64,000 bases of DNA from contig JAQTHY010000001.1 of NCBI GenBank assembly GCA_029433345.1, positions 1,426,001-1,490,000 on the forward strand, given 5' to 3'. Shown here in pieces: positions 1,612 to 22,772 of the stretch; positions within the stretch are counted from its first letter, which is position 1, and each line of letters begins with the position of its first letter. This DNA is from Orbaceae bacterium ESL0727. Its GTDB lineage: Bacteria; Pseudomonadota; Gammaproteobacteria; Enterobacterales; Orbaceae. The notes beneath the pieces are model-generated. The model ran no database searches, had not been told where the DNA came from, and saw nothing but the letters and a program-made list of their open reading frames with translations. The position numbers were made by a program, and so were the translations under genes.

Positions 1612-2286
1612 TTAATCCAATATCGACGATATCCACCATACGCGCCCTAAGATGGTGATTTCTTCTAACGGTACCACTTCATCATCATAGTTAATATTAT
1701 AACTTCTTATTTTTACTTGGTTTCCTGGCATTTTTTCGAGTAGCTTTATGCGGAGTAATCCATCATGATTGATGGCGTAGATTTTGCCGTCACGGATATT
1801 TTTATCTGCTTGATCAATACCAACGGTTGATTTGTCTCGCAAAACCGGTTCCATGCTATCGCCTTCTACTGACAAGCAAACGGCGCAATCTTTATCGATA
1901 CCGTATCGTTTCATTGTTGATTTTGATAATCGTAATTTATAGCCGTTATAATCTTCGATATCGTCAGCAAATCCATTGCCTGCTGATAATTTTATATTTT
2001 TATAAAATGGCACTTCAATCTCGTCATTAGTCAGCGGTGTTTGACTCTCCCAGTCTCCGATGTTACCAAGCATTGTCGCATTAGATTTGCTTTTTTTCTC
2101 GGTATCTAAATAAAAAGATGGCATGCCGTAATCATTTTCTAATCTACGGGCTGATTTTTCACCGAATGATGCTTTGCCATTTATTAGCTGAGAAATATAA
2201 CTTTTTTCTTTCACCGGTACGGTTTTATCGGAAAACCACTCTTTTAAATTTTTAGCTCTGATCTCTTTTAATGTGTCTTTGTTCAT
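1612..2286 (-). CDS. Prophage CI-type repressor (HTH plus S24 LexA-like peptidase)
   Basis: A 224-aa repressor. Residues 1-60 form an XRE-type helix-turn-helix domain, and residues 90-220 form a peptidase S24 domain with the autocleavage serine S144 in VEGDSMEP and the general-base lysine K181 in LLRIKLL. The probable RecA-stimulated cleavage point is A102-G103 in KLSAGNG, in the linker. This arrangement predicts SOS induction, typical of both lambdoid prophages and phage-tail bacteriocins. An AGGAG SD precedes the ATG. The promoter and operators lie in the 2287-2396 intergenic region shared with the divergent cro-like gene, and the nuclease-like gene at 419-1567 follows in the same direction. 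Confidence 0.93.
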   Translation of the reverse strand: MNKDTLKEIRAKNLKEWFSDKTVPVKEKSYISQLINGKASFGEKSARRLENDYGMPSFYLDTEKKSKSNATMLGNIGDWESQTPLTNDEIEVPFYKNIKLSAGNGFADDIEDYNGYKLRLSKSTMKRYGIDKDCAVCLSVEGDSMEPVLRDKSTVGIDQADKNIRDGKIYAINHDGLLRIKLLEKMPGNQVKIRSYNINYDDEVVPLEEITILGRVWWISSILD

Positions 2287-2305
2287 AAAAACTCCTATTT
2301 GTTCT

Positions 2306-2334
2306 ATTTTATTTAGTAATTGCTAAACAAGCAA
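2306..2334 (-). promoter_or_regulatory. Repressor promoter (pRM-like)
   Basis: On the minus strand TTGCTT (2334-2329), a 17-nt spacer and TAAAAT (2311-2306) make a sigma70 promoter pointing at the repressor. The spacer is filled by the palindrome TTTAGTAATTGCTAAA (2312-2327), so a dimer bound there would block or autoregulate this promoter. Confidence 0.7.
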
Positions 2335-2396
2335 AAGGTAAACTTACTTGACTTTTAGTTTACAAAAAAATAAACTTAGTTTAGCTTTAACTAAAC
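2312..2396. promoter_or_regulatory. Operator cluster between repressor and cro
   Basis: Three palindromes share TTTAG/CTAAA or TTTA/TAAA half-sites: 2312-2327 (inside the leftward promoter spacer), AGTTTA/TAAACT at 2357-2362 and 2371-2376 (overlapping the rightward -10), and GTTTAG/CTAAAC at 2379-2384 and 2391-2396 (over the rightward start site). The three-site layout over two divergent promoters matches a lambda-like oR switch. Confidence 0.65.
2348..2376 (+). promoter_or_regulatory. Early rightward promoter (pR-like)
   Basis: TTGACT (2348-2353), 17-nt spacer, TAAACT (2371-2376), giving a start near 2383 and a leader of about 25 nt before the ATG at 2408. Because the TTG at 2348 is the -35 box, it cannot be the start codon of the cro-like gene even though the frame is open from there. 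Confidence 0.75.
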
Positions 2397-2407
2397 AAGA
2401 AGCATTA

Positions 2408-2611
2408 ATGAAACTATCCATCTATTTAGCTCAACTCCCTTATGGCGGTAAAAGCCAATTTGCTAAAGATATTGGTATTTCTAAAGCTTTTTTGCGACAT
2501 ATCGAAATTGGTTTATCGCCAATTCCACCCAAAGTGGCAAAAAGAATTGAAGAACATACGCAAGGGCAAGTAACGAAAGCCGAATTACGACCGGATTTAT
2601 GGGCGGAATAG
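2408..2611 (+). CDS. Cro-like / YdaS-family HTH regulator
   Basis: A 67-aa DNA-binding protein with a helix-turn-helix in KSQFAKDIGISKAFLRHIE and the C-terminal signature VTKAELRPDLW. That signature is typical of the Cro/YdaS antitoxin-like family carried opposite phage repressors. I chose the ATG at 2408 rather than the upstream in-frame TTG (2348), because the latter is the promoter -35 and operators would lie inside the coding region. It is the first gene of the rightward early operon and presumably opposes the repressor. Confidence 0.85.
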   Translation: MKLSIYLAQLPYGGKSQFAKDIGISKAFLRHIEIGLSPIPPKVAKRIEEHTQGQVTKAELRPDLWAE

Positions 2612-2755
2612 TGTTAGCAAATACTTAACCGTATCACCTGATGGTTAGATAAATGAGGCGTAATCAACGCGAACGGCTAATTGAGATAGTGAAATAGCAA
2701 AGTAGCTAAATCGCGAAATTCCAAACAGCAAGACGATTAATTAACGGGGGCTAAT

Positions 2756-2959
2756 ATGACAAAGAGAAGCAGAGTAATAGCACATTTAAAAAGTGGACAA
2801 CCTTTATCTAAGTTGCAATGCATTAGAAAGTTCAAGTATTTAAATTTGGGTGATGTTATTTATCAGCTTAGATGTGAAGGGTTTGATATTCAAACCATCA
2901 TGACACCGCAAAAAAATGGTAGTGATTATGCTGTCTATAAGATGAGAATTAGCGCATGA
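2756..2959 (+). CDS. Small phage helix-turn-helix protein (HTH_39-like)
   Basis: A 67-aa basic protein of the type found in many prophages just ahead of the replication genes: MTKRSRVIAHLKSGQPLSKL followed by a winged-helix-like pattern (IYQLRCEGFDI, YAVYKM). The stop overlaps the next start by ATGA at 2956-2959, so translation is coupled. An SD-like GGGGG lies just before the ATG. The exact role (regulator or replication accessory) is not known. The 144 nt before it (2612-2755) contain no convincing gene. Confidence 0.7.
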   Translation: MTKRSRVIAHLKSGQPLSKLQCIRKFKYLNLGDVIYQLRCEGFDIQTIMTPQKNGSDYAVYKMRISA

Positions 2960-3654
2960 GTATTCGATTAATGACAAAGGCTTACGAGTCAGTGGTTGGC
3001 GATTCTGGCGCTAAATTTGTATTGGTCAAGCTGGCAGACAATGCCAACGATGAAGGGTTTTGCTATCCATCAAACCAGTATTTGGTCAAACATTGTGAAA
3101 TGAGTGAGCGAACCATTCAAAATCATACTAAAAAGCTTGAGAGACTTGGGTTAATCAAAATTACTGAAAGAAGAGGTAAATCTAATTTATACCAAATTAT
3201 GTTAAATGATGCAACCCCCGTTGAATCTGCGCCCCGTCAAATTTGCACGCCCGCCAAAAATGACAATAACCCCCGCAGAATCTGCACCACACCCCCGCAG
3301 AATTTACGGGACACTCCCGCAGAATCTGCACCCATAACCCTAAATAACCCTAAAGAATCTATTCATAATCATAAAAAAGATGATTTTAATCCTATGGATA
3401 TAAAGCCTCACAACGTCAGTGTTGAGTTATGGGGTAGTTGGATTGATTATCGGAAAAAATTAGGTAAAAAATTGCAATCGGCTTCGTGGATAAAACAAGC
3501 GCAGATGTTAGCGGCGCAGGATAATCCTGAGGAGATCATTAACCGTTCCATCATGAATGGTTGGCAAGGGTTGTTCCCGAAACAGGCCAACATAGCTGCG
3601 GTGAATCACAGCAAGACGGCCTGGATTAATCATCTTGATAAGGAGGTGTTTTGA
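2956..3654 (+). CDS. Phage replication initiator, O-like (winged HTH)
   Basis: A 232-aa protein whose residues 5-85 form an HTH_36-type winged helix (GYC..N.YL...CEMSERTIQNHTKKLERLGLI), the DNA-binding fold of lambda-O-like replication proteins. Residues 90-135 are a low-complexity linker with four copies of an 'AESAP/RQICTP'-like unit. In other O proteins the origin lies inside the gene, and here the DNA repeats at about 3215-3335 (cccccgcag-type units) are candidate iterons. The C-terminal part (from about 145) has the WG.W..YR..L.K pattern often seen before a P/DnaC-like partner. It is followed with a 1-nt overlap by the P-like gene. Confidence 0.75.
   Translation: MSIRLMTKAYESVVGDSGAKFVLVKLADNANDEGFCYPSNQYLVKHCEMSERTIQNHTKKLERLGLIKITERRGKSNLYQIMLNDATPVESAPRQICTPAKNDNNPRRICTTPPQNLRDTPAESAPITLNNPKESIHNHKKDDFNPMDIKPHNVSVELWGSWIDYRKKLGKKLQSASWIKQAQMLAAQDNPEEIINRSIMNGWQGLFPKQANIAAVNHSKTAWINHLDKEVF
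3215..3335. repeat. Iteron-like repeats inside the O-like gene
   Basis: Several copies of a C-rich unit resembling cccccgcagaatctgcac recur across the linker region of the replication gene. The position matches the lambda origin, which lies within O and consists of iterons bound by O. It is a candidate replication origin, judged by eye only. Confidence 0.4.
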
Positions 3655-4328
3655 TGAAAGCGATAACGGATTTAATGCCAACACTGAATAACGGCGATGT
3701 CGTCGGATTGACGTCAAAACAACCGCCAAAAGAACAGGCTGCTGAAGTGGTGAATAAGCTTTTTTCACAGTTAAAAGCGGCTTGCCCGGCCATGTTCCAT
3801 ACCTTGAATCAAGATGATGAAATGGCCGTTAAAAGACAGTGGATCATCGGTTTTATTGAGAATGGGATTACGTCGGCTATGATTAACGCGGGTATGCGGA
3901 TGGCTAGGCAACAGCGGAATCCATTTATGCCATCCATCGGTCAGTTTATGACCTGGTGTGAACAGGGATTAGCCCAGCAATACGGATTGTTCTCGCCTGC
4001 CGAATTAGTGAAGAAATGTGATGAATATAGCGCAAAACGGGGCTTTGATGATTTTTGCGATTTTGATTATGGCTGTGATGCGAATTATTGGTTAATTGTC
4101 GCGTTATACCAAGCGATGAGAGATGAAAATTTAACTAAAACCAAAATGTTAGAACGCGCAGATAGATTGATTGCAGATATGGCCAAAAAACTGATGAAAG
4201 GTTATATCGCACCGAATCCTCATAAATCGTTACCCAAAACAGTGAAAGGGAAGCCGTTAGCTAGAGAGCAGCAGCTATCTAAAATTCATGAATTGCGGCG
4301 CAGATTTAAGCTTGGTTGTGCATCCTAA
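3654..4328 (+). CDS. Phage replication protein P-like
   Basis: A 224-aa protein resembling lambda P, which recruits host DnaB helicase. The characteristic stretch is W-I-x-G-F-x-E-N-G-I-T near residue 65, followed by GMRMARQQRNPFMPSIGQFMTW and, near the C terminus, LRRRF. The ATG at 3654 overlaps the O-like stop (TGATG) and has a perfect SD, AAGGAGG (3640-3646), 7 nt upstream. The in-frame TTG at 3651 is therefore not the start. Its retention in an otherwise headless locus implies either a recent loss of the head genes or a continuing role for replication. Confidence 0.8.
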   Translation: MKAITDLMPTLNNGDVVGLTSKQPPKEQAAEVVNKLFSQLKAACPAMFHTLNQDDEMAVKRQWIIGFIENGITSAMINAGMRMARQQRNPFMPSIGQFMTWCEQGLAQQYGLFSPAELVKKCDEYSAKRGFDDFCDFDYGCDANYWLIVALYQAMRDENLTKTKMLERADRLIADMAKKLMKGYIAPNPHKSLPKTVKGKPLAREQQLSKIHELRRRFKLGCAS

Positions 4329-4455: not shown

Positions 4456-4809
4456 ATGAGACCAACAAAAGATATCTTAATTGCCTGGAAAAACACGCGA
4501 GTGTTGAAACGCATTGGTACCGAATATCCGTCAAAATCATCGGGATTAGTGGGTGCACCGCGAGATTTTGATTATAGAGAATATCTTACCGAAAAAGAGG
4601 CCGACGTGGTGGATGAGGCGGTATTGATGTTAAAAGAGGATAATGTCGAATTTTGGGCTGTTTTGACATCGTTTTATTTACGTGAGATTTCATGCAGTAA
4701 ACAAGCGCGCATTTTAGGAAAACAGCCGACAGAAATCACAAAAATTTTGCTGGCGGCTGAATGTTTTGTACGCGGTAAAATTTATGACGGCTTTAAAAAT
4801 GCGGCATAG
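4456..4809 (+). CDS. Q-like late antitermination protein
   Basis: A 117-aa protein. The C-terminal half (LTSFYLREISCSKQARILGKQPTEITKILLAAECFV) has the sigma-region-4/HTH-like pattern of Q/ArpU-type late regulators, and size and position also fit. SD GAGGAAAG lies upstream of the ATG. It is the last early gene, and 280 bp downstream a strong promoter is followed almost at once by an intrinsic terminator, exactly the substrate a Q protein acts on. The assignment rests on position and fold pattern rather than clear sequence identity. Confidence 0.6.
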   Translation: MRPTKDILIAWKNTRVLKRIGTEYPSKSSGLVGAPRDFDYREYLTEKEADVVDEAVLMLKEDNVEFWAVLTSFYLREISCSKQARILGKQPTEITKILLAAECFVRGKIYDGFKNAA

Positions 4810-5297: not shown

Positions 5298-5501
5298 ATG
5301 GCTACTATTAGGCGTACGTTTGCAAGATCAGCGGGTAGTATTATCAATCTAAAGCCAAATACGGATTATAAATCATATACATCAGTTCAAGCATCAACAT
5401 ATAAAACTATGTCAAATGATATGAAGAAAGTTGGAAAAGATCTAGGATGGGTTGTGAAAAGTTATGCCGCAAACAAAAAACAAAAATCTACCTATAAATA
5501 A
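5298..5501 (+). CDS. Small basic protein of unknown function
   Basis: 67 aa, rich in Lys/Ser/Tyr, with no membrane segment or recognised motif. It has a strong SD (AAGGAG, 5286-5291) six nt before the ATG, so translation is likely. Its last 38 nt overlap the start of the DUF2335-type gene in another frame, implying coupled expression as a pair. It lies between the late regulator and the lysis genes, where lambdoid phages often carry morons. Confidence 0.6.
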   Translation: MATIRRTFARSAGSIINLKPNTDYKSYTSVQASTYKTMSNDMKKVGKDLGWVVKSYAANKKQKSTYK

Positions 5502-5955
5502 AAATAATTTGCAAAAAGATTGTCCTATTGTATTGCAAATAGAAAAAGAAATTGAGAATAATCCGAATATTCTTGAAGAGTTATTAGAGAGGCCTTCTAT
5601 ACAGAAAATGGTCTTTCATAAAAGTGAATCTTATAGTGGGCCTTTACCTCATCCTGATATATTAAAAAAGTACAATGAATTAGATCCTGATTTTTCAAAA
5701 ACGATATTTGCACATTTTAAAGAAGAACAAGAACATCGCCACAGAATTGATAATAAAGCAATAGATGGCGCAATATTAAGCGATAAACGTGCGCAATATA
5801 TGGCTTTTTTTATATGTATCATTGTGTTAGGGATTAGTTTTTATGCTGTTTACTCTGGTAAAGAAGTGGCAGGTATAATTGGGCTGGTTATGAGCCTAGG
5901 TGGGCTAATTGCTGCTTTTTTAAAGGGTAATAACAATAGTAATAACAACAATTAA
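5464..5955 (+). CDS. DUF2335-type membrane protein
   Basis: A 163-aa protein matching the pattern of DUF2335 predicted membrane proteins: the SGPLPHPDILKKYNELDP motif near residue 60, a glutamate/histidine-rich helix (EEQEHRHRI), then two closely spaced hydrophobic segments (about residues 115-135 and 138-155) and a short Asn-rich tail. The start lies inside the upstream 67-aa gene. Biochemical function of the family is unknown. As a separately promoted prophage cargo pair it could serve superinfection exclusion or membrane sensing, but that is speculation. Confidence 0.75.
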   Translation: MPQTKNKNLPINKNNLQKDCPIVLQIEKEIENNPNILEELLERPSIQKMVFHKSESYSGPLPHPDILKKYNELDPDFSKTIFAHFKEEQEHRHRIDNKAIDGAILSDKRAQYMAFFICIIVLGISFYAVYSGKEVAGIIGLVMSLGGLIAAFLKGNNNSNNNN

Positions 5956-6058: not shown

Positions 6059-6176
6059 ATGTCTGCTCGCTTAAACAGTAAAGCCCTCTACTTATAATAG
6101 ATAAGTTAGTGGTTAGAATCCGCGCGGACAATCATCTCATTCCCTCGTTTTGAGGCTTTTCATAAAGACTAAAATT

Positions 6177-6500
6177 ATGGCAATAAAACCACCCGATGAA
6201 ATCGATCGATTTACGGTGCTGATTATGTTCATTGTGACATTGATTGGTGCTGTCGCAAATTACCTACATAAAGTCATTATTGGCGCTAAATTTGAAATAT
6301 TTATGCTGATTTCGCATATCACAATATCAGGATTTGGCGGCTGTTTGATGATACTGATTGCTTCACACTTTGATTGGGATTTTGAGTCAACCGGTATTGC
6401 GTGTGGCGTGGCGGGTTGGTCAGGATCGACATTAGTTAACGCGATCGAAGCGCGTTTGGTCAAAAAAATAACGGGTGAAAACAGCGGTGATAATAAATGA
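6177..6500 (+). CDS. Holin (LydA/holin III-like)
   Basis: A 107-aa protein with three hydrophobic segments (about residues 14-32, 40-65 and 70-92), a charged C terminus, and the general pattern of LydA-type class holins. It forms the inner-membrane lesion that lets the endolysin reach the wall. I use the ATG at 6177; the open frame extends upstream to a TTG without SD. The stop overlaps the endolysin start by ATGA. Confidence 0.75.
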   Translation: MAIKPPDEIDRFTVLIMFIVTLIGAVANYLHKVIIGAKFEIFMLISHITISGFGGCLMILIASHFDWDFESTGIACGVAGWSGSTLVNAIEARLVKKITGENSGDNK

Positions 6501-6925
6501 ATATTAGCAACAACGGCAAGCAATTAATTAAATCATTCGAAAGCTTACAACTAAGCGCCTACCATTGTCCGGCGGGAATATTAACCATCGGCTATGGCCA
6601 TACGGGTAACGTCAAACTGGGGCAAACCATTAGTGAACGCGAAGCAGATTGCCTTTTAATGCAAGATTTATATCAAGCTGAAAATTCAATCAACAAACTG
6701 GTCAAAGTGCCACTCAGTCAAAATCAGTATGATGCCTTGGTTAGCTTTGTGTTTAACGTTGGTACGATGGCGTTTAATAAATCAACTCTGTTATGTCAAT
6801 TAAATAATCGTGATTATGTTAGCGCGGCCAATGAATTTCTGCGATGGAATAAAGCCAATGGTGTGGTGTTAGCCGGGTTAGTGAAGCGTAGACAAGCAGA
6901 AAAAATGTTGTTTGAGCGAGTGTAA
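6497..6925 (+). CDS. Endolysin, T4-type lysozyme (GH24)
   Basis: A 142-aa muramidase that cleaves peptidoglycan. The catalytic signature E15-(8 aa)-C24-(5 aa)-T30 is intact (SFESLQLSAYHCPAGILTIGYGHT region), in the Cys variant known from P1/P21-type lysozymes. There is no signal-anchor-release segment, so export depends on the holin. The start overlaps the holin stop and the stop is one nt before the Rz start. Confidence 0.92.
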   Translation: MNISNNGKQLIKSFESLQLSAYHCPAGILTIGYGHTGNVKLGQTISEREADCLLMQDLYQAENSINKLVKVPLSQNQYDALVSFVFNVGTMAFNKSTLLCQLNNRDYVSAANEFLRWNKANGVVLAGLVKRRQAEKMLFERV

Positions 6926-6926
6926 C

Positions 6927-7274
6927 ATGAACGCAAAACAGATAATTATCATTCTTTCTTTTACTATTGCTTTAATTGTCAGTAATGGATGTTGGCTGGT
7001 TAGAATCAAAAATATCGCGCTGCAGCAAGAAACTGACAAACGCCTGCAAGCTGAAGAATATGCCAAGAAAGTAGAATATCAGCGCGAATTAACGAAAAGC
7101 TCAATTCAGACCGTTACCGAAGAGACCAATCTCTATATGCAGCTAAACGAACAGCTAGAGGCTGAAAAAAATGCGTTACAAAACAGTATTGATAACTTAT
7201 TGCATGATGATGAGTGCGCTAATAGTGATATTCCTGACATTGTGCGCAAGCGGATGTTCGCCGCGCCGCATTGA
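6927..7274 (+). CDS. i-spanin (Rz-like)
   Basis: A 115-aa type II inner-membrane protein with a single N-terminal membrane segment (about residues 4-22) and then a long charged coiled coil (about 28-95). It has the size and topology of Rz. Its 3' half contains the out-of-frame Rz1-like gene. With Rz1 it would fuse inner and outer membranes at the end of lysis. The ATG at 6927 follows the endolysin stop directly. Confidence 0.8.
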   Translation: MNAKQIIIILSFTIALIVSNGCWLVRIKNIALQQETDKRLQAEEYAKKVEYQRELTKSSIQTVTEETNLYMQLNEQLEAEKNALQNSIDNLLHDDECANSDIPDIVRKRMFAAPH

Positions 7275-7479
7275 GTATGTCACACCGACTTATGCGCCAC
7301 TTTCTGATGCGATCGCTAAAGCAAATCCCGAACCTCAAGTTACCGAGCAAAATCTAAAAAAATGGAAAGATACACTTATTTTAATGAATGATTACCAAAT
7401 CTGGGGCAGAAAAGAGAGTAATCGTGCTAACTCATGTGTAGTGATTTATCAAAAAACGGTTGAGGCTAACAATGAGTGA
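7171..7479 (+). CDS. o-spanin lipoprotein (Rz1-like)
   Basis: A 102-aa protein read in another frame, starting 103 nt before the Rz-like stop. It has an N-terminal signal peptide with lipobox L-C-A-S-G-C, predicting lipidation of the second Cys (about residue 29) and anchoring in the outer membrane. A short Pro-containing segment (VTPTYAPL) follows. Nested or overlapping Rz/Rz1 pairs are a hallmark of caudoviral lysis cassettes. Its final codons overlap an ATG (7472) of a vestigial frame that stops after nine codons. Confidence 0.75.
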   Translation: MRYKTVLITYCMMMSALIVIFLTLCASGCSPRRIEYVTPTYAPLSDAIAKANPEPQVTEQNLKKWKDTLILMNDYQIWGRKESNRANSCVVIYQKTVEANNE

Positions 7480-7935
7480 TCAATGGCAAGCCGACAAATG
7501 ATGTTGTGACGGCGATGATATGATCTAAAGGTAATCATACAAATAAGGTCGTCATACCGTGAGTTATCTTCTAACGACGTTTATGCAATAGTCAGAAGGT
7601 ATCGGCAAAATAGGTCATTGGCGCGATCACTGAGCTGATTGTATGCCAAGCAATTTAACAACAGTTAAAGAGGAGGGCTCTGATAAACCATGTATTGAGA
7701 TTAACCAGCGTAAAACAGCAATAATTCATAAAAAATAATTTATTAAAAAATAAGTTATTAAAGGCGATCACTTTAATTTAATTGTTCATGTTTTTTCCAA
7801 TGTACTTTTTTAACGTACTTTTATCAAGGCGCTTTTTTCAGCGTACTTTTCTCAACATACCTATCCAAAACGGTATTTTATTCAATTATCACAACATGCG
7901 CTTTCGTGTCATTGCGAAAGCTATCTGGAGTAACT
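7472..7935. other. Head-gene deletion scar between lysis and tail modules
   Basis: About 430 nt with no supportable gene, where a lambdoid myophage would carry terminase, portal, protease and capsid genes. It begins with a vestigial frame (ATG 7472, stop 7499-7501) overlapping the Rz1-like stop, as a true next gene would, and ends with a small hairpin GCTTTCG/CGAAAGC (7900-7906/7915-7921) just before the tail genes. Between them lies AT-rich sequence with short 'CGTACTTTT'-like repetitions (about 7797-7860). This is read as the remnant of a deletion or replacement. Confidence 0.55.
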
Positions 7936-8433
7936 ATGGCTATTACGACTGTCTCGCGACTCGATATGACGGAAGTCAGACACATGATAGCGGAGGTTTT
8001 ATCGTTAGCGGATGATATCGTGCTTGATGCTAATGATAGACAAAATGTTGCTAACCTTAATTCGTATATCACCGTACTTTGTTCGGATCAATTAGATATT
8101 GGTACCGAAGTTTGTTACGACGGTAACAATGAGTTAGAAATAGCATCAACATTAAAAGAGGTCACCCTCTCGGTCAATGCCTACGGCAAAAATGCGGATG
8201 ATTTACTTTGTAAACTGACTGAATCCATGCGATTCACATCAGTTTGGCAACGACTAAAACGGCTCAAAATGGGTTATCTACGCTGTTCACCTGTCCATAA
8301 TTTGCCTGCCGACACGGCAACAGATAATCAACAACGAGCACAAGTTGACCTAATCTTTTCGACAAATTCAATCACTCAAGCTGAAGTCAAACGGGGCGAC
8401 AGCGTCAAATTTAACTTAGAGGTTTCTAAATGA
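7936..8433 (+). CDS. Tail terminator / neck protein (gp12/LIC_12616-like)
   Basis: A 165-aa protein of the phage neck/tail terminator type found directly upstream of DUF3383 sheath genes in Bcep781- and Aaphi23-like myophages. It caps the finished tail and in complete phages joins tail to head. I prefer the ATG at 7936 (TGGAG SD eight nt upstream) over an in-frame GTG at 7906 that falls inside a hairpin. Its stop overlaps the sheath start by 4 nt (ATGA). Confidence 0.7.
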   Translation: MAITTVSRLDMTEVRHMIAEVLSLADDIVLDANDRQNVANLNSYITVLCSDQLDIGTEVCYDGNNELEIASTLKEVTLSVNAYGKNADDLLCKLTESMRFTSVWQRLKRLKMGYLRCSPVHNLPADTATDNQQRAQVDLIFSTNSITQAEVKRGDSVKFNLEVSK

Positions 8434-9944
8434 GCTTACCATTAAGCCAAGTTGTAGATGTCACACTACAACAATCACCACAAGGCACACAAAAACGTGA
8501 TTTAAGTGTTGTTGCTATCTTTACTAAAGAGATGTGCGACGAATTTAGCAATAAAGATAAACGTTACCTAGTTGTGACGGATGCAGACACCGTTGCGACA
8601 ATGTTCGGCAGTCATTCCGATGCATATAAAGCTGCCAGCGCACTCTTTTCGGCACGACCTAAACCGAAAGTCGCATTAATTGCTAAATATATGCAAAATG
8701 AAGTCACAACACCGATAAGCAACGCCAAAATAAACGGTTCGGCATTATCGGTTTCGTACATTCAGTTTAAAAGCATCACCGATGGCTATCTGTCATTTTA
8801 TTTTAATGACGTTAAACGTGATATTACTGGACTTAACTTTGCGACTGTCTCAAGTATGAACGATGTAGCGGCTATCATTAACAGCAAACTGACTGATCTA
8901 AATATTTCGTTTGTTTATGATGCGGTCGGCAGTCGTTTTATTCTGGCAAACAACACCAAAGGTAAAGGCAAAGGTGATTTTGGTTACCTGTTTGACGATA
9001 AATTAGGTGGGACTTATATCGGTGGCCTGACCAATCTGATTGACGGGAAAGGGACGTTAATTAACGGCGATGATGCGGTGACACTTAACAAAGAAACTCC
9101 AGCTGAAGCGTTAACTGCGCTACAAAATCAATATCAAAACTGGTATGGCATCTATTTTGCTAACCCAATCACTGACGCAGAGTTAATTGAAGCACATGAC
9201 TGGACTGTTGCCCAAGGCGTAGAAAATGCCAAAGTTATGGCATTTACGGAAACACGCGTTGCCAATATTGAATATAGCGATACAAATGTATTAAAAACAT
9301 TAGCAAAACGCAACAGTGGACGCCTAATGGTGCAATATAACAACAAAGGCAATACGCACGCTGCAGCTGAATTGATGGGAGTTGCGTTAACAACCGTTTG
9401 GACGGGGACTAACACAGCTAAAACAGTCAAATTTAAGCAAGAAGCGAGCGTGACGTCGGACGACAAAATCACCATCAACGAAGCAGAAAAATGTCGCAGA
9501 CTTGGCATTAACTATTACACCGATTTCGCCGGTGTCAATATGCTCGCCGAAGGCGTGATGATTGGCGGTACGTTCATTGATGAAACAGTAGGACTAGATG
9601 CGTTCGTTAATGCTGTACAAGTGCAAGCCTTTAATACTTTGCAGGGTCAAGCGACTAAAATCCCACAAACTGACCGTGGGCAAGAAATTTTAATCAGCTC
9701 AATCAAAATTATCGGTGAACAATTTATCAATAACGGTTTCCTCGGTACAGGGAAATGGACGTTAGCTGATATTGGCGATTTAACCTATGGTAATACGATT
9801 AACGGTTATTACTTTTTCTCTGACTCATTCGACACGCAAGATGCTGCAGATCGCGAAGCGCGCAAAATGATGCCAATTAACTGTGCGCTAAAATTAGCAG
9901 GCGCAGGGCATAGTGTTGATATTATTGTCCAATTTAATCGATAA
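8430..9944 (+). CDS. Contractile tail sheath protein (DUF3383)
   Basis: A 504-aa protein with the DUF3383 start pattern (MSLPLSQVVDVTLQQSPQG) and the family's conserved internal regions (DADTVATMFGS, GWxxGxGTTN-like WTGTNTAKTVKFKQ, GINYYTDFAG, GVMIGGTFIDE, NGYYFFSDSF). DUF3383 proteins form the contractile sheath of a group of myophages, so this locus encodes a contractile (R-type) rather than flexible tail. It is full length with no interruption and is followed by the tube gene 9 nt later. Confidence 0.85.
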   Translation: MSLPLSQVVDVTLQQSPQGTQKRDLSVVAIFTKEMCDEFSNKDKRYLVVTDADTVATMFGSHSDAYKAASALFSARPKPKVALIAKYMQNEVTTPISNAKINGSALSVSYIQFKSITDGYLSFYFNDVKRDITGLNFATVSSMNDVAAIINSKLTDLNISFVYDAVGSRFILANNTKGKGKGDFGYLFDDKLGGTYIGGLTNLIDGKGTLINGDDAVTLNKETPAEALTALQNQYQNWYGIYFANPITDAELIEAHDWTVAQGVENAKVMAFTETRVANIEYSDTNVLKTLAKRNSGRLMVQYNNKGNTHAAAELMGVALTTVWTGTNTAKTVKFKQEASVTSDDKITINEAEKCRRLGINYYTDFAGVNMLAEGVMIGGTFIDETVGLDAFVNAVQVQAFNTLQGQATKIPQTDRGQEILISSIKIIGEQFINNGFLGTGKWTLADIGDLTYGNTINGYYFFSDSFDTQDAADREARKMMPINCALKLAGAGHSVDIIVQFNR

Positions 9945-9953
9945 GGGATACAA

Positions 9954-10388
9954 ATGACAAATAAATTATTTTCTTTAGAAGATGCTGTACTCACTGTAGA
10001 TGGCATCGAAATTACCGGTTACGAAAATGCACAAGATGCAATTAGTATTGCGCCACTTGGTGATGATGGTGAGCTAACTTACGGTATCGGCGGCAATGGT
10101 GTGTTTATTCACTCATGCAATCATGGGGCGACAGTCACCCTTAAAACCTTGCAACATAGCGAAACTAATCAACGGCTTAATGAGTTGCGTAATCATCAAA
10201 TTAATAATCCAACCACGGCAAAAGGTCTTTTGATTACCTATAAAGATTTACGCAATGGTGATGAATTTTTGCTAACCGGATGCTGGTTTTCAACGCCACC
10301 AACGCATGCACGTGGTACGTCACATAATGGTGTGACATGGACATTTAAAGCAACCAAAGCCGAATTTAAACTTAAAGGTGGTATGTAA
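9954..10388 (+). CDS. Tail tube protein (DUF3277-like)
   Basis: A 144-aa protein immediately after the sheath, with the beta-rich pattern and size of phage inner-tube proteins (LFSLEDAVLTVDGIEITGYE start, GDEFLLTGCWF near the end). It would polymerise inside the sheath along the tape measure. The stop codon abuts the chaperone ATG at 10389. Confidence 0.8.
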   Translation: MTNKLFSLEDAVLTVDGIEITGYENAQDAISIAPLGDDGELTYGIGGNGVFIHSCNHGATVTLKTLQHSETNQRLNELRNHQINNPTTAKGLLITYKDLRNGDEFLLTGCWFSTPPTHARGTSHNGVTWTFKATKAEFKLKGGM

Positions 10389-13843: not shown

Positions 13844-14636
13844 TATCGGTAATCGTAAAGAAAGTATCGCTATTAATAACTTACGGGTCACGTTTTCAAT
13901 CAAAAAAACGTTAACATCTGAACCAAATACGGGCGAAATTGCGATTTATAATCTCAATGATTCTAATCGCAATCTTATTACCAGCAGAAAATATGACTTT
14001 GTCGAGCTATTTGTCTGTTATAAAGAAGATGCGCTTAGAATGATATTTTGCGGTGATATTCTAACCGTTGAAAACAAAATCGCATCACAAGATATCATTA
14101 CCACAATGCGCTGCGCGGATGGTCACCGTGCGTTTACCGAAAAAACGATGGTTAAAACGATGGAAAAAGGGCAGACAGATAGTGATTTTCTTAATGAAGC
14201 CGTGGATAGTTTTGGTATTCAAAAAAGCAATATCAATTTACCGAATGATAGAGTGCTGCCACGCGGCAAAGTATTTATGTGTGATACCCGGGAAGCGATG
14301 AACAAAATCGCGGTCAATAATCATGCCGATTGGTCAATCCAAGATGATCAATTGATTGTTATCCCGAAGGACAAGGCCATCCCCAATAACGAAGGTTTTG
14401 TCATATCACGAACCACTGGCATGATCGGCAGTCCGCAAAAAACTAACGACGGGTTAGAAGTAACCACGTTATGCAATCCACATTATCGAATCGGTGCGCT
14501 GATTCGAATTGAATCAAAATTAACCGAATACAACGGTGATTATAAAATAAAATCCATCGAACACAGCGGTGATTTGTATGGCGATAATTGGCAAAGCAAA
14601 ATAGTGTGCGTGGGCGGTAAATTTGGAACGGTCTAA
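13812..14636 (+). CDS. Baseplate hub protein
   Basis: A 274-aa protein with the N-terminal pattern of myophage hub proteins (VTFSIKKTLTSEPNTGEIAIYNLN..., a frequent signature of gp44/gpD-like hubs in DUF3383 phages) and a C-terminal IKSIEHSGDLYGDNWQSKI. It starts at GTG 13812 with AAGGAAG six nt upstream, inside the plug-like gene. It would form the trimeric base on which the spike sits. Confidence 0.75.
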   Translation: MRQFGRVLQLNIGNRKESIAINNLRVTFSIKKTLTSEPNTGEIAIYNLNDSNRNLITSRKYDFVELFVCYKEDALRMIFCGDILTVENKIASQDIITTMRCADGHRAFTEKTMVKTMEKGQTDSDFLNEAVDSFGIQKSNINLPNDRVLPRGKVFMCDTREAMNKIAVNNHADWSIQDDQLIVIPKDKAIPNNEGFVISRTTGMIGSPQKTNDGLEVTTLCNPHYRIGALIRIESKLTEYNGDYKIKSIEHSGDLYGDNWQSKIVCVGGKFGTV

Positions 14637-14822: not shown

Positions 14823-15491
14823 ATGTCAGACACACTCTATCAAGCTATCGAAGAGCAAATAAAACGCTCGCAATCCACAATATTTACTGCGCTACCGGCA
14901 ACGGTTATCGCGTTTGACGGCCATACCGTACAGTGTAAGGCGATGATTAACAAAGTATTAGCTAACGGTCAAGAGATAGCTATTCCTCCCCTAGTCGATG
15001 TGCCAGTCCAGTTTCCGCATGCGGGTGGATTTTGTATTACGGTACCGATAAAGGCCGGCGATGAAGGGTTGGTGATCTTTTCGAGTCGCTGTATTGACGG
15101 TTGGTTTGCATCAGGTCAAACCTCAAAACCGCTTGATAATCGAATTAATGATTTGAGCGACGGCTTTTTTATTCCCGGTTGCAATAGTGTTCCGCATAAA
15201 ATTCCCGTTTTTTATCACGATGGTATATCGATGCAGACTGATGATGGCTCAACGCATATTCGATTAACAAACGGCACTATTTATATTAAAGGGAATATTG
15301 AGCACCAAGGCAATACCAAACAACTGGGCAACTATAATCAAACGGGTAGCTTTAATCAAAGCGGGGGTAATACGTCCAGTAACGGTACTATCACCGCACA
15401 AGATATCAAAACGAACAAAGGTATTGACCTCAATAAGCATGTACATGCGGGCGTGCAAAGTGGTGGTAGCACAACTAAGGAGCCACAATAA
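14823..15491 (+). CDS. Membrane-puncturing spike (Gp138/gpV-like)
   Basis: A 222-aa baseplate spike. Residues 10-130 form the OB-fold Gp138-type N-terminal domain (TVIAFDGHTVQCKAMI, GDEGLVIFSSRCIDGWF). Residues 140-200 are a beta-helical repeat (IEHQGNTKQLGNYNQTGSFNQSGG), and the apex carries the metal-binding HxH pair H206/H208 in NKHVHAGVQSGGSTT. The sharp metal-capped tip pierces the outer membrane on sheath contraction. The stop overlaps the next start (TAATG). Confidence 0.85.
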   Translation: MSDTLYQAIEEQIKRSQSTIFTALPATVIAFDGHTVQCKAMINKVLANGQEIAIPPLVDVPVQFPHAGGFCITVPIKAGDEGLVIFSSRCIDGWFASGQTSKPLDNRINDLSDGFFIPGCNSVPHKIPVFYHDGISMQTDDGSTHIRLTNGTIYIKGNIEHQGNTKQLGNYNQTGSFNQSGGNTSSNGTITAQDIKTNKGIDLNKHVHAGVQSGGSTTKEPQ

Positions 15492-15856
15492 TGAAAGTAC
15501 GAGAACTGGACAATAACCATGATTGGACATTTGGGCATGGTTTAGCTAACTACCTGACCGATTCCGCTGCGATAGCGCAATGTGTAAAGACTAAATTATT
15601 AGCATTAAAAAGAGATTGGTTTCTAAATCGTGATGAAGGTATCGCATGGTTCGACTATCTCACTAAAAATCCAAATACTAAACAGTTAGAAACCGATGTC
15701 AAAACCGAAATTTTTAACGTAGATGGCGTAGTCAGTATCGATAAATTCGACATTTTACTCGATACCGACACCCGAGAATTTCTCATCCAAATCACCTACA
15801 CCGACAAATATAACAAATCAAACGAGGCGGCATTTAATGTTACAGATAACCGATAA
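15491..15856 (+). CDS. Baseplate wedge protein (gp25/gpW-like)
   Basis: A 121-aa protein between spike and J-type wedge, with the gp25-like order of motifs (ALKRDWFLNRDEGIAWFDYL, then VDGVVSIDKFDI). It initiates sheath assembly at the baseplate. It overlaps the following J gene by 20 nt. Confidence 0.75.
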   Translation: MKVRELDNNHDWTFGHGLANYLTDSAAIAQCVKTKLLALKRDWFLNRDEGIAWFDYLTKNPNTKQLETDVKTEIFNVDGVVSIDKFDILLDTDTREFLIQITYTDKYNKSNEAAFNVTDNR

Positions 15857-16958
15857 AGGTATGATTATTGATGATTTTGATACGATAAGAAACCGTTTAG
15901 TCGAATCGTTCAAATCGATTTATGGTGAAAATGTTAACCTAGATAGCGATACGCCTGACGGTCAACTATTAGGGTTGTTTTCGCAAGAACTGTTTAATAT
16001 TCATCAATCCGTTTCGTTCATTGTGCAGATGTTAGACCCGTATCAAGCAACCGGGCAATGGTTAGAACAGCGGGCAATGTATGCAGGACTAGTTAGAATC
16101 ACTGCCTCTTATTCTTATATCGATGAAGTGATTATTACAGGTAAGCCGAAAACTATCATTCCATACAATGCGATTTTTATCGATTCAAATAAAAATAGAT
16201 GGATAACTACTCACGCAGTCACATTGAACGAACTCGGTAGCGCAAGGGTAAAATGCAGGTCGCAAGAGCTTGGCAATTTTACTGTTAAACCGCTAGATGA
16301 GTTCACTGCGAGCACTATTATTATCGGTGTTGAGAAAATAACAGCAAATACTAGTAGTTATGGTGGAGTTGATGAAGAAACGGACACACAATTATTAAAA
16401 CGGTTTATGCTTTCTCATTCAATCAACAATTATGATGATAGACGAGGTATGCAATCAGCCTTGATTAATATAACTGGTGTAACTAAATGTGTTGTTTACG
16501 AAAATTATACTAATCAAACAGACGATAAAGGTGTCTCCGCTCATTCTATTAACGTTGTTCTACTCGGTGGTGATGATAAACGTATTGCCGAAGTCATCAC
16601 TAAAAAGAAAATCGGTGGCTGCGGACTATTCGGTCAAATCCAATCATCGTATTTATTAGACGGCATATCACGAACAGTCTATTTTGATAGACCTAAAAAA
16701 ATATCAGTTAATGTTTCAATGACGCTAGGACGCTACAAATCATTTAGCGATATCAATACTGATGAAATTATTACTAATTTAAAAAATATGGATTTTGATA
16801 TTGGCGAGAGTGTTTATTCATCGCGAATTATATCAAATATCAATTTAGTCGACGGATTCTATATTAAGCAACTCACAGTAAATAATTCCAATATTGCCAA
16901 TATTAACTGTCGCGAATATGCACAGATTGCGAATGTCGAGGTGCTTATTGATGATTAG
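15837..16958 (+). CDS. Baseplate J-like wedge protein
   Basis: A 373-aa protein of the Baseplate_J family: the N terminus GENVNLDSDTPDGQLLGLFSQ and GQWLEQRAMYAGLVR are typical, as is the central E-T-D-x-x-L-L-x-R-F-stretch (VDEETDTQLLKRFML). It forms the outer baseplate wedge that links to fibres. The last 8 nt overlap the DUF2612 start (ATGATTAG). Confidence 0.9.
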   Translation: MLQITDKGMIIDDFDTIRNRLVESFKSIYGENVNLDSDTPDGQLLGLFSQELFNIHQSVSFIVQMLDPYQATGQWLEQRAMYAGLVRITASYSYIDEVIITGKPKTIIPYNAIFIDSNKNRWITTHAVTLNELGSARVKCRSQELGNFTVKPLDEFTASTIIIGVEKITANTSSYGGVDEETDTQLLKRFMLSHSINNYDDRRGMQSALINITGVTKCVVYENYTNQTDDKGVSAHSINVVLLGGDDKRIAEVITKKKIGGCGLFGQIQSSYLLDGISRTVYFDRPKKISVNVSMTLGRYKSFSDINTDEIITNLKNMDFDIGESVYSSRIISNINLVDGFYIKQLTVNNSNIANINCREYAQIANVEVLIDD

Positions 16959-17607
16959 AACGGACTTCCTCATTTGGCAATATCGCAATAAGCCCAAAGC
17001 AATTGGTACTATCAAAGCTATCTACAGGGAAACCGATAATACATTTAAAAGTGTTATCAAGATTAGTGACATTCTCAATATTGAAACAGCCACTGGTTTT
17101 GCGTTAGATCTGGTCGGTCGTCACGTCGGTGTATCGCGAATATTACCCAAAGCGGTTGCTAAAGAATATTTTGGCTTTTGTGAAGATAACTCATCGCTTG
17201 CTTTTGGTATCGGTGAATTTTATCGCTATGGTGACTCTTTATCTGCAAGTGTCGTTTTAAGTGATAACGACTACCGATTCTTTATTAAAGCCAGAATTAC
17301 CAAAAATTACCAATCTGGCGAGATATCAAACATCGTCAAGTCGATTAAATTCGTCATCGGTGAAAACGGTAATGTAATCGATATCCAAGACATGACGATG
17401 AACATTATCGTAAATGGCGAATATCTAAATACATTAACACTCTACGCAATAAGCCAGTTAGATATCTTAGTACGTCCTGTTGGCGTTATGTATCGCTATC
17501 TCGTTTTAACTAATAACGAACCGTTCGGTTTTTCAAACGATAAAGGTGCATATGCATTTAATATTGGTACTTTCGTTAGACTTAAAGAAATAGGAATCAC
17601 ACAATGA
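16951..17607 (+). CDS. Baseplate wedge / fibre-network protein (DUF2612)
   Basis: 218 aa from ATG 16951 (MIRTDFLIWQYRNKPKA). The DUF2612 pattern is clear: ATGFALDLVGRHVGVSR and the C-terminal NNEPFGFSNDKGAYAFNIGTF. It occupies the position of the protein connecting the wedge to the tail fibre. Its stop overlaps the fibre ATG by 4 nt. A diverged copy of its 3' end recurs at 19644-19744. Confidence 0.8.
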   Translation: MIRTDFLIWQYRNKPKAIGTIKAIYRETDNTFKSVIKISDILNIETATGFALDLVGRHVGVSRILPKAVAKEYFGFCEDNSSLAFGIGEFYRYGDSLSASVVLSDNDYRFFIKARITKNYQSGEISNIVKSIKFVIGENGNVIDIQDMTMNIIVNGEYLNTLTLYAISQLDILVRPVGVMYRYLVLTNNEPFGFSNDKGAYAFNIGTFVRLKEIGITQ

Positions 17608-20711: not shown

Positions 20712-21104
20712 ATGGCAGTAACACGCGTTACATTTAAATTTAATTTGTCGGACGGGTTAGTACAAACGCAAACTATCGACATTCCTAACGGAAAGGATGG
20801 AGCTAATGGCAAAGATGGAGAAGGTATTCACATAAAAGGTGCTGTCGCAAATAAGAATAGTTTGCCAGCAACAGGTAATGTAAATGGTGATATCTGGACA
20901 ATCACTAGCACGCTAGAAGTGGCAGTCTGGGACGGTTCAAAATGGAATTATTCATCGCTAAATGTGTTAAAGGGCGACAAAGGTGATAAAGGCGATAAAG
21001 GAGATACCGGAGCAGCTGGAGCTACCGGTGCAAAGGGAGATACTGTAGCTCAAGGAGCTAAGGGCGACAGGGGGGGATACAGGTGCAACTGGTGCAAAAG
21101 GTGA
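20712..21104 (+). CDS. Collagen-like fibre-tip protein, frameshifted at a G7 tract
   Basis: As read, 130 aa. A short beta N terminus (VTFKFNLSDGLVQTQTIDIPNGKDG) is followed by a domain with DIWTITSTLEVAVWDGSKW and a collagen-like Gly-x-y run (GDKGDKGDKGDTGAAGATGAKGD). After seven G (21070-21076) the frame changes to a nonsense tail (GGYRCNWCKR). With six G, the Gly-x-y pattern continues (DTGATGAKGDTGTRG) to a stop at 21160-21162. The gene is therefore either frameshifted (off) or phase variable. SD GGAGAG lies upstream. Confidence 0.8.
   Translation: MAVTRVTFKFNLSDGLVQTQTIDIPNGKDGANGKDGEGIHIKGAVANKNSLPATGNVNGDIWTITSTLEVAVWDGSKWNYSSLNVLKGDKGDKGDKGDTGAAGATGAKGDTVAQGAKGDRGGYRCNWCKR
21070..21076 (+). 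repeat. Homopolymeric G7 tract
   Basis: Seven consecutive G inside the collagen-like gene. Loss of one base restores the Gly-x-y frame to 21162, so this tract sets the reading frame of the protein's C terminus. Confidence 0.85.
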
Positions 21105-21172
21105 CACTGGTACAAGAGGTATAAGTATTTCAACTATCACATGCACAGCGGTTCAAGTTTGATGGAGTTACT

Positions 21173-21478
21173 ATGTCTAGCACAAAAGTAACATTAAAAA
21201 TTGGGCTGACAGACAACACAACGAAAGAAATTTCGTTTGTCGTTCCCAATGGTAAAGACGGCAAAGACGGAATTGGCGCATCTCTGCAAAACTATCACGT
21301 AACTATTACATCGAATAATCAAGCAAGTATTTCTATTCAATCAGGATTAACACCGGTTACTCTATTCGTCAATGGCGTAGCACAGAACAGCGATTTTTGG
21401 AGCTTTTCTAACAATCAAATCGAACTCGGTACCGGTTTAGTCATTAACGCTATTGTTATGTTTACAGCTTATAAATAA
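21173..21478 (+). CDS. Collagen-like tip protein paralogue (short)
   Basis: 101 aa. The N terminus (VTLKIGLTDNTTKEISFVVPNGKDGKDG) is a diverged copy of that of the preceding gene, but the Gly-x-y run is reduced to two triplets and a different C terminus follows (GLTPVTLFVNGVAQ...VINAIVMFTAYK). That C terminus resembles the final beta domain of fibre 2 (ILVCVNGLTQAIEKN), suggesting domain shuffling among the tip genes. Confidence 0.65.
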   Translation: MSSTKVTLKIGLTDNTTKEISFVVPNGKDGKDGIGASLQNYHVTITSNNQASISIQSGLTPVTLFVNGVAQNSDFWSFSNNQIELGTGLVINAIVMFTAYK

Positions 21479-21494
21479 TAAAAGGAGCAAAAAA

Positions 21495-22388
21495 ATGGCA
21501 AGACCAACAGGTGGAATTTTACGATTCCCGATAACTAATAGTCTCGGCACATCAACAACGCTAGCAGCAAGTCAAAAGTTAGTGAACGATGTCGCGAGTA
21601 CAGCGTTAAAAAAAGGCGATTATGGTATTGGTACAACAGATTTACCTTTTCTTGCTAATTTCGCTGCATTTGATATTCAAAATGGGCAATATTATGCACG
21701 CGGATCAATGTCATCGTCAGCAAGTTTAAATGCACCACCAGGCTCTGGTAATACAGTTCTTACAGTAACAGTTAAAAATTATTCACAACTTGTTGTTCAC
21801 TTTGAAGTTATTGAAACTAGCGGGCAAATGCAAAGAAAATGGATCGGTCAACACTACAAAGATGTCAATTATATTTCACCGGTTATTTGGTCAGAAATAA
21901 TCACTATTAATAGTATCGCATCAACATCACGATACGGAACCACTAAACTTAATTCGGCAACAAATAGTATATCAGAGGCAGAAGCTGCAACACCTTTTGC
22001 AATAAAAAAAGTATATGATTTTGCTAATGAAATCAAGAGTAATCTCCCGATTACTTATGTTTGGTATCCGGGAGGCTCCGAACAATCGCCCGGAATACTA
22101 TATAACAACCAGCGCATCATTTTTGATAACCCATTTCAATTAAATAGTAGAGTCCTTTGCTGGGTCGAATTTTTAGAGAATAATATTTGGTATAAACATG
22201 ATGAAATCATATATAACGGGCGTGACGGACTTGGGACTAAAACGAACAATTATGGTAATAAAATAGTGATCCAAACTGGTAGTAGCAGTGTACGCACACA
22301 ATCGTATCACGACGGTAATCCTGTTGGTGTTTTTAATTTCCCAAACAGTTTGCCGTACCGTGTAATTTTAGTTAGATTAACAAATTAA
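21495..22388 (+). CDS. Tail fibre 3
   Basis: 297 aa from ATG 21495 behind AAAGGAGC. The N terminus (RPTGGILRFPITNSLGTSTTLAASQKLVNDVAS) differs from fibres 1 and 2, but residues about 150-185 hold the same Phage_fiber_2 unit (STSRYGTTKLNSATNSISEAEAATP). The C terminus (VWYPGGSEQSPGILYNN...) is a separate, probably receptor-binding, domain. It is followed by the second Tfa-like gene 12 nt later. Confidence 0.75.
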   Translation: MARPTGGILRFPITNSLGTSTTLAASQKLVNDVASTALKKGDYGIGTTDLPFLANFAAFDIQNGQYYARGSMSSSASLNAPPGSGNTVLTVTVKNYSQLVVHFEVIETSGQMQRKWIGQHYKDVNYISPVIWSEIITINSIASTSRYGTTKLNSATNSISEAEAATPFAIKKVYDFANEIKSNLPITYVWYPGGSEQSPGILYNNQRIIFDNPFQLNSRVLCWVEFLENNIWYKHDEIIYNGRDGLGTKTNNYGNKIVIQTGSSSVRTQSYHDGNPVGVFNFPNSLPYRVILVRLTN

Positions 22389-22400
22389 AATGAGACAAAC

Positions 22401-22772
22401 ATGAATAAATATATTTTCGGTAAAATTGACGATTCTTTTTTTGAAATAATTTTAACAGATGATGAAAACGTGACAGCAAAAGAAGGATTTGTTCTAATGA
22501 AAGAAGAACGCCCTGGCATTGATTATATTGCAGATAAGCGTGGGGAATGGATCATTGATACAAAAAGACACATTAAAGATAATGAAGCTACTGTGTCACA
22601 ATTACTTAGTGAAGCAAATAATCAAATCGGAATCCTGCAAGATATTATTGATTTGGATATGCAAGAAGCTGATGAAGAACAGCAGCTAAAAGCGTGGAAA
22701 AAATATCGGATTTTATTATTACGTGTTGACGTTAGTTCAGTTAATATTGATTGGCCAACAAAGCCTATTTAA
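22401..22772 (+). CDS. Tail fibre assembly chaperone 2 (short Tfa)
   Basis: A 123-aa protein. The C-terminal 60 residues (LLSEANNQIGILQDIIDLDMQEADEEQQLKAWKKYR..LLRVDV) align by eye with the Tfa at 19035-19643. The N-terminal domain is shorter and different. Presumably it is dedicated to fibre 3. It converges with the acetyltransferase gene, overlapping by 8 nt. Confidence 0.8.
   Translation: MNKYIFGKIDDSFFEIILTDDENVTAKEGFVLMKEERPGIDYIADKRGEWIIDTKRHIKDNEATVSQLLSEANNQIGILQDIIDLDMQEADEEQQLKAWKKYRILLLRVDVSSVNIDWPTKPI

Follow-up and report, generated by a model that had tools for sequence, protein, structure and literature searches.

Organization of the locus

The locus described here occupies positions 1612–22772 of a 64,000-nucleotide window, by which we mean the whole stretch of DNA analysed, from contig JAQTHY010000001.1 of Orbaceae bacterium ESL0727. 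The host, a Gilliamella species by kinship, has a genome of 2.15 Mb, and the locus lies inside a 2.0-Mb contig. Read rightwards, genes for a CI-type repressor, a cro-like repressor, a winged-helix open reading frame (ORF), O- and P-like replication proteins, a Q-like antiterminator, two small ORFs, a holin, a lysozyme and the spanins Rz/Rz1 are followed by a contractile tail module (terminator, sheath, tube, chaperone, tape measure, Dit-like protein, small structural protein, hub, spike, gp25-like, J-like and DUF2612 proteins, and a fibre cluster). Profile matches were obtained for every module that the initial annotation had named, in the order it gave. As judged from its genes, this is likely an SOS-inducible, lysis-released contractile (R-type) tailocin, recently formed from an Aaphi23-like Gilliamella prophage whose head and packaging module was deleted.

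A deletion scar in place of the head module

Only 456 bases separate the end of Rz1 (7479) from the ATG of the tail terminator (7936), versus 9,549 in the headed Gilliamella relative G008. The initial annotation had described this space as lacking terminase, portal, protease and capsid genes, which is correct, but the space is not empty. An ORF within it corresponds at 70% identity to residues 53–108 of a 108-residue head gene (roughly its last 56 codons), and DNA similarity to the headed prophages of G008 and G025, of about 80%, begins at 7869. By this similarity, the gap holds a deletion scar consisting of the 3' end of a head gene.

The head genes are not found elsewhere in the regions and families searched. 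The 20 kb to the left of the window, read as ORFs, contain ordinary chromosomal genes; two were checked against Pfam (a ketoacyl synthase and an autotransporter), while the labels of the others are our presumption. Moreover, 33 queries taken from Aaphi23, ZX7 and Pmp2, covering integrase, regulator, replication, lysis, head, neck and sheath, were searched against the 60 kb to the left plus the window. They matched only CI (with one weak S24 match elsewhere), Q, the sheath and the single head-gene remnant; neck1 was not found. Head genes to the left, whose discovery would have refuted the tailocin proposal of the initial annotation, were found neither in the 20-kb reading nor in the 60-kb search.

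A head supplied by another prophage of the same genome was also considered, and no match was obtained for the families tested. The portal and major capsid protein (MCP) of headed G025 gave zero matches in the whole host genome, the capsid of G009 gave none, and neither did the Terminase_6N (PF03237), Terminase_3 (PF04466), TerL_ATPase (PF03354) and HK97 capsid families; PF04466 is the terminase family of G025 and PF03354 that of G009, whereas PF03237 is not the family of this phage type. These searches support the proposal of a candidate R-type tailocin made in the initial annotation. An integrase was not recognised beside the locus, where the flanks were read and two integrase queries gave no match. 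Of terminase, portal, capsid and integrase, the genes that mark a complete temperate phage, none was recognised at the locus.

The features are collected in Table 1; the 32 ORFs listed for the window are open by construction.

Table 1. Features at the locus and at its left edge, with the family matches (E-values) behind each name.
Feature	Position	Strand	Basis
HsdR_N-like protein, moron or left edge of element	419..1567	-	PF04313 6e-14
CI-type repressor, S24 peptidase domain	1612..2286	-	PF00717 9e-22, phrog_4 8e-39
cro-like repressor	2348..2611	+	phrog_35 7e-11
O-like replication initiator	2956..3654	+	phrog_678 1.7e-29, PF13730 1.9e-15
Four 20-nt iterons within O, putative lambda-type origin	3214..3332	+	direct repeat family D1
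P-like helicase loader	3654..4328	+	phrog_109 1.8e-52
Q-like antiterminator	4456..4809	+	phrog_79 9e-6 (weak family match)
Putative pR' promoter; terminator hairpin	5090-5118; 5151-5176	+	consensus matches only
Membrane protein, moron class	5464..5955	+	phrog_3996 4e-39
Holin	6150..6500	+	phrog_6384 1.8e-25
Phage lysozyme (endolysin)	6497..6925	+	PF00959 1.6e-50
Spanins: Rz 6912-7274, overlapping Rz1 7171-7479	6912..7479	+	phrog_214 2e-6, phrog_456 2e-5
Deletion scar, 3' remnant of head gene	7782..8015	+	phrog_939 'head protein' 1.2e-4
Tail terminator	7936..8433	+	PF23961 2e-19
Tail sheath	8430..9944	+	phrog_205 8e-89, DUF3383 6e-102
Tail tube	9954..10388	+	phrog_280 2e-30 (listed as virion structural protein), PF11681 5e-7, position as in Aaphi23
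Tail assembly chaperone, by position	10389..10805	+	phrog_6419 8e-31 (function-less family); annotated chaperone there in ZX7
Tape measure protein	10947..12791	+	phrog_9388 1e-54 (function-less family), phrog_8125 4e-38
Dit-like tail protein	12791..13480	+	PF21821 9e-28
Baseplate-region structural protein	13490..13843	+	phrog_349 6e-10 (listed as virion structural protein)
Baseplate hub, E217 gp41-like	13812..14636	+	phrog_196 3e-77, PF22759 1e-21
Baseplate spike with Apex motif	14823..15491	+	PF18352 1.5e-35, PF18946 1.6e-4
Baseplate wedge: gp25-like 15491-15856, J-like 15837-16958, DUF2612 16894-17607	15491..17607	+	phrog_120 2e-27, phrog_6 5e-50, phrog_587 2e-54, PF04865, PF11041
Fibre 1; tfa-like; fibre 2	17604-19025; 19035-19643; 19622-20698	+	phrog_523 1e-61, PF03406
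Two collagen-like ORFs, fibre 3 21453-22388, tfa-like 22401-22772	20712..22772	+	fibre 3: PF03406 1.6e-14; matches in relatives

Regulation, replication and lysis genes

The O- and P-like genes are full-length. The iterons within O, followed by an AT-rich stretch at about 3360, resemble what we take to be a lambda-type origin. The promoter-like site and T-run hairpin located 3' of Q fit a Q/pR'/tR' switch on consensus alone. For the switch claimed in the initial annotation, the Q match is weak and the promoter-like site and hairpin fit, but single sites of this kind carry no weight on their own: promoter sites over the whole scan do not exceed those in shuffled sequence (23 versus 24.1), and terminators exceed them only slightly (8 versus 6.0). 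A stretch 64% identical to the Q-like gene is found at the same position in G020.

Repeated loss of the head in Gilliamella

We then compared 35 Gilliamella genomes, including this one. The sheath occurs in 10, and the portal and MCP each occur in two (G008 and G025), both among the 10; the eight remaining sheath-bearing genomes have neither, and a portal or MCP without the sheath was found in 0 of 35. In six of the eight (the present genome, G034, G029, G020, G012 and G003), a single contig covers the stretch between the lysis genes and the tail. Holin and endolysin genes are kept in all six, and the gap between Rz and the tail terminator is 283–487 bases in the other five. The last two, G027 and G031, are included among the genomes without portal and MCP though their contigs start just upstream of the tail terminator, and G031 is 59% complete. 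Among 18 IMG/VR loci, 10 carry portal and MCP, six (L047 and L053–L057) carry neither and have lysis genes, and two (L050, L062) are too short to class. The genome and IMG/VR counts are not additive, since by spacing and identities several appear to be the same loci (L049/G008, L051/G025, L050/G027, L054/G012, L055/G029, L056/G020 and L057/G034).

The right ends of the deletions, located by tblastn, are not identical. What is left of the head gene starts at residue 53 in the window and in G027, which could reflect one event or a coincidence, and at residue 16 in G034. The deletion of L053 ends at residue 49 of neck1 and leaves the head gene intact, a scar to which we give less weight given an internal inverted duplicate in the contig, and that of L047 leaves only the overlap with the tail terminator. 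A weak trace (residues 63–108, 37%, E 1e-4) is present in G020, and none was detected in G012 and G029.

L047 offers a comparison with a close headed relative, L045, with which it groups as a sister pair in the tail tree (100/100 support). The two share a 660-base stretch with the endolysin end at 90% identity. Relative to L045, L047 keeps a piece of the terS region (76% at the DNA level) and a piece of the protease (residues 146–234), and at least two separate deletions took the rest of the head region up to the tail terminator. The deep nodes of the tree are weakly supported and do not fix the number of losses, so the claim of repeated loss is carried by the scars and not by topology. These scars, which differ and one of which lies beside a close headed sister, indicate that deletion of the head module has been repeated within the genus.

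Replication genes allow the headless loci to be ordered. G034 has an O-like gene (phrog_8540 3e-38) and a weak helicase-loader match (phrog_2289 3e-5; its best family is function-less). In G003, one of the ORFs in the O/P places is 75% identical to the loader-like gene of G034, and another matches the O-like gene in part, at 31%. An O/P match is absent between CI and holin in G020, G029 and G012. The loci fit a graded series: headed, headless with replication genes (the window, G034, G003), and headless without them (G020, G029, G012). The initial annotation had regarded the retention of O and P as unusual; the genes are present, but in this sequence comparison the window is one member of a series and no exception. 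Its suggestion of a newly formed or intermediate stage fits the series, and the comparison with related genomes that it had proposed yielded headed, scarred and streamlined versions.

A common insertion site was not found: several left-flank genes are common to G029 and G034, but to no others of the flanks compared. In the headless locus of G029 (L023:8330-10888), a tyrosine recombinase (PF00589) adjoins a fibre gene, a tfa-like gene and a fibre-tip-like ORF that points the other way; with a 66-nt inverted repeat (77%), these possibly form an invertible fibre switch.

Constraint and divergence of the tail genes

The comparison of gene lengths took in 11 tail genes. Each is full-length in the window, and the same holds for the headless loci as far as their contigs extend (four genes in G003). 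One in-frame stop, flagged in the G020 homologue of the gene at 12791, was dismissed as lying at codon 226, close to where the window gene, of 229 codons, normally ends. Ratios of nonsynonymous to synonymous substitution rates (dN/dS) were calculated by NG86 for the headless pairs G029/G012 and G012/G031 (11 genes) and G020/G003 (four genes). They mostly range from 0.03 to 0.15; apart from the very close pair G012/G031, treated in the Discussion, the exceptions are the tail terminator in G029/G012 (0.24), two zeros and one gene with saturated dS. Headed pairs gave 0.005–0.17, with one value of 0.30 (the gene at 13490, L048/L060). For the window and G034, values were 0.05–0.18 in the 8 of 11 genes that were computable, with high dS.

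The tail terminator behaves differently. Its identity to the outgroup phage LS-2018a is 44–48% in 10 headed loci; in headless loci it is 38% (window), 40% (G034), 43% (L047), 42% (L053) and 48% (G027), and 30–34% in G029, G020, G012, G031 and G003 (10 headed versus 10 headless-classed loci, Mann-Whitney p = 0.0016). Overlap between the ranges is greater when ZX7 serves as outgroup (34–37% versus 26–37%, p = 0.0044). These p-values are descriptive, as the loci are related (L058 and L059 do not differ in tail terminator or sheath; G012/G031 and G020/G003 form close pairs). Divergence of the sheath, tube, chaperone, gp25 and J-like genes did not differ significantly between headed and headless loci, and the hub showed a weak difference with one of two outgroups (p = 0.045). 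Our reading is that the tail terminator, the one retained head-facing protein, drifts once the head is gone; only it clearly diverges faster. An AlphaFold2 model of this protein (mean pLDDT 71) has a fold like the XM1 and E217 necks (query template-modelling (TM) scores 0.64 and 0.62), with weaker matches to the diffocin collar (0.34), R2-pyocin collar (0.48) and monocin cap (0.40).

Comparison with known phages and tailocins

Haemophilus phage Aaphi23 has the same cI-cro-O-P-Q-lysis order, and its tail genes are arranged as in the window between sheath and first fibre. Unlike the window, it carries terS, terL, portal, head protein, protease, DUF2184 protein and neck genes between Rz1 and sheath, and its P is annotated as a DnaB-like helicase whereas that of the window is a P-like loader. 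Full-length sheath identity to the window is 51% for LS-2018a (Erwinia), 43% for ZX7 (Proteus) and 37% for Aaphi23, which are among the closest phage records. ZX7 also has terminase and head genes before the sheath, and portal, protease and MCP are each matched in LS-2018a; none of these was found in the window. Closer still are the headed Gilliamella prophages of G008 (strain Choc4-2) and G025 (N-G2), with sheaths ~80% identical and the same tail order; they possess a full head module, unlike the window, and G008 additionally has an integrase and a DnaB-like helicase.

As in R-pyocins and carotovoricin, a contractile tail with fibres is combined with lysis genes and no head, as the consulted parts of two sources describe these tailocins (PMC12090994, PMC13195805). 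The complete set of contractile tail genes and the tail terminator are retained and head and packaging genes are missing, as in R-type tailocins, and the lysis cassette and SOS-linked regulator are recognised from sequence. The tail is of another origin than that of the R-type Pseudomonas tailocins, given there as P2- or Mu-related (PMC12090994). Known tailocins are described in these parts without replication genes, whereas the window keeps O/P, a Q-like gene and a readable head-gene scar (PMC12090994, PMC13195805). According to the same excerpts, tailocins have several separate origins in different phages, those of Pseudomonas going back to P2-, Mu- and lambda-related phages; one lysis cassette is common to two divergent tailocins in P. 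chlororaphis (PMC12090994), and carotovoricin is conserved and vertically transmitted in Pectobacterium (PMC13195805). In the portion consulted of a honey-bee gut prophage survey including 61 Gilliamella genomes, the main text does not contain the word tailocin (PMC10259446), and no title or abstract opening among the open-licence papers searched concerned a Gilliamella tailocin.

Related release cassettes elsewhere in the genus

CI matches of at least 68% identity, many covering the C-terminal part only, occur in 12 of the 35 genomes, including this one. In G026 (L096, G026:C1:1176000-1195900), a related CI and ORFs resembling Q, holin, endolysin and Rz lie ahead of a contractile tail of the Mu-like type (sheath phrog_165 1e-191, tube, tape, hub, J-like); two ORFs occupy the O/P places, and the first of them matches DnaD_N only below threshold. 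In the interval separating this lysis cassette from the tail, neither a terminase nor a capsid ORF was recognised, and a search of G026 with the G009 capsid gave no match. Beyond the gap, the first ORF has as its best match phrog_209, labelled 'portal protein' in PHROGs (3.5e-27, a 163-residue profile), which counts against G026 being headless. We take it as a probable neck or tail-completion protein, because its homologue in G009 adjoins the sheath and a separate PF04860 portal exists there. G009 (L098) carries the same Mu-like tail (sheath 93%) with terminase, portal and HK97 capsid. This sheath is present at 86% identity or more in seven genomes, and in four of these (G009, G015, G025, G016) a capsid match lies no more than 4.5 kb away on that contig, while G033 and G017 are unsettled in this respect; with four of seven near a capsid match, head loss is not the rule for the Mu-like tail.

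In G015 (L095, G015:C15:156000-164452), the next gene recognised after the Rz-like ORF encodes a siphophage tail tube (PF08813 2e-52), after which the contig ends; this locus is possibly an F-type tailocin. In G007, G005 and G013 (L099, L100, L103), related CI, Q, holin, lysozyme and Rz-like ORFs are followed by mostly family-less proteins, and a tail machine was not recognised after the lysis cassette. A protein with a SASA esterase domain follows the cassette in G007 and G013, and G007 also has a tail-fibre PHROG. It is conceivable, though on balance doubtful, that one SOS-repressor/(O-P)/Q/lysis cassette serves as a platform to which headless payloads have repeatedly been fitted (the DUF3383 contractile tail, the Mu-like contractile tail, a siphophage tail, and tail-less esterase-bearing fibre proteins), with O/P and the in-gene origin amplifying the locus in place upon induction and raising the yield of payload without phage.

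Fibre cluster and flanking genes

Fibre 2 repeats the 5' end of fibre 1 (a 230-nt repeat at 80%, with flanking 81- and 97-nt repeats). The tfa labels at 19035-19643 and 22401-22772, and the collagen-like labels in 20712-21478, are our assumption. The two collagen-like ORFs are short and lie at 20712-21478 between fibres; the first stops soon after the repeat tract. At the end of the cluster, a hexapeptide-repeat transferase-like gene (PF00132) is present at 22765-23367 on the minus strand, with 45% homologues at the same place in G034 and G020. One may speculate that it alters the producer's surface for self-protection. On the left, the HsdR_N-like protein is stand-alone, and an 84% identical homologue also adjoins the headless element of G034; the left boundary of the element may therefore be as far as 419. 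To the right, genes for Cas1 and type I-F Cas2/3 (Pfam) are found at 23697-28138; a CRISPR array, sought for spacers against these phages, was not found in the window by strict k-mer search.

Discussion

From these genes, a course of events can be proposed. DNA damage would lead to cleavage of CI, as its S24 domain suggests, and early transcription would then supply O, P and Q, with Q carrying late transcription through the hairpin after pR'. Sheathed tails would assemble, and the tail terminator, recognised from its Pfam family and its fold, would cap them where a neck would otherwise sit; holin, lysozyme and spanins would burst the cell. The fibres would bind the surfaces of competitors and contraction would kill them, as in known tailocins. 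The headless tail thus probably now serves as a weapon against rival bacteria, and the best reading is that of an intermediate-stage locus in a genus where tailocins form repeatedly. Given that replication genes are retained, it is a variant rather than a canonical tailocin.

Several observations weigh against this reading. The window has zero exact LexA boxes, and the four matches found with one mismatch in 1501-8000 do not lie between CI and cro, so that SOS control is read from the S24 domain only. Full-length O and P remain, while tailocins are defined as having no nucleic-acid replication genes in the part consulted of PMC12090994. Retention of a tail is by itself weak evidence, because tail-fibre genes are enriched in incomplete prophages in general, together with integrase and transposase genes, according to the sections consulted of PMC7744054. 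In the very close pair G012/G031, dN/dS reaches 0.83 for the tail terminator and 0.27 for gpI, with few changes. Low values between headless loci reflect use after head loss only if the common ancestor of each pair was already headless, and for the window itself constraint after the loss is not measurable, because its nearest relatives are at ~80% sheath identity and dS is high or saturated.

The unmeasurable constraint on the window would also suit a defective prophage in ordinary decay, which lost its head first by chance and keeps tail and lysis genes intact only through recency of the loss. Such decay would also leave a deletion scar, and it agrees with the persistence of O/P, the lack of a recognised integrase and the general enrichment of tail-fibre genes just cited. 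We nevertheless consider it rather improbable. None of the 35 genomes keeps a portal or MCP where the sheath is lacking, head loss has recurred with lysis and tail left whole, and tail dN/dS between headless loci is low. Incomplete prophages generally lose replication, packaging, lysis and baseplate genes, with lysis and baseplate genes lost preferentially (PMC7744054, in the same sections); as judged against that profile, a full tail with lysis and replication genes and no head is different.

A phage satellite with its own tail and O/P replication, borrowing heads from a helper phage, would account for replication genes and a putative origin kept without a packaging module, and capsid genes from other prophages occur in two genomes that bear the same tail, G034 (a 92% match) and G027 (a 41% match containing a stop). 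It is very improbable here, where the host genome has no match to the three terminase families, the HK97 capsid or the cognate portal and MCP, and where head joining looks disabled, because neck1 was not found and the connector is truncated. Among the scanned window ORFs, no packaging gene, capsid-redirecting gene or integrase of known families was recognised, which leaves room for genes of unknown families. That an assembly error dropped the head genes is hardly credible: only one genome of this species is available, but the locus is enclosed in a large contig and similar loci recur in several other assemblies, for example on a 2.75-Mb contig in G029.

If the locus is indeed a recently formed tailocin, the machine is of an ordinary kind; it is its stage and recurrence that are unusually informative. 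The route from phage to tailocin is usually inferred from finished products, whereas related Gilliamella species, which are bee-gut bacteria, carry versions cut at different places. A single gut-symbiont genus holds headed phages, scarred cut loci, loci with replication genes and streamlined loci together, and the order of steps therefore becomes testable: the head first, the replication genes later, and the tail terminator drifting once freed from the head.

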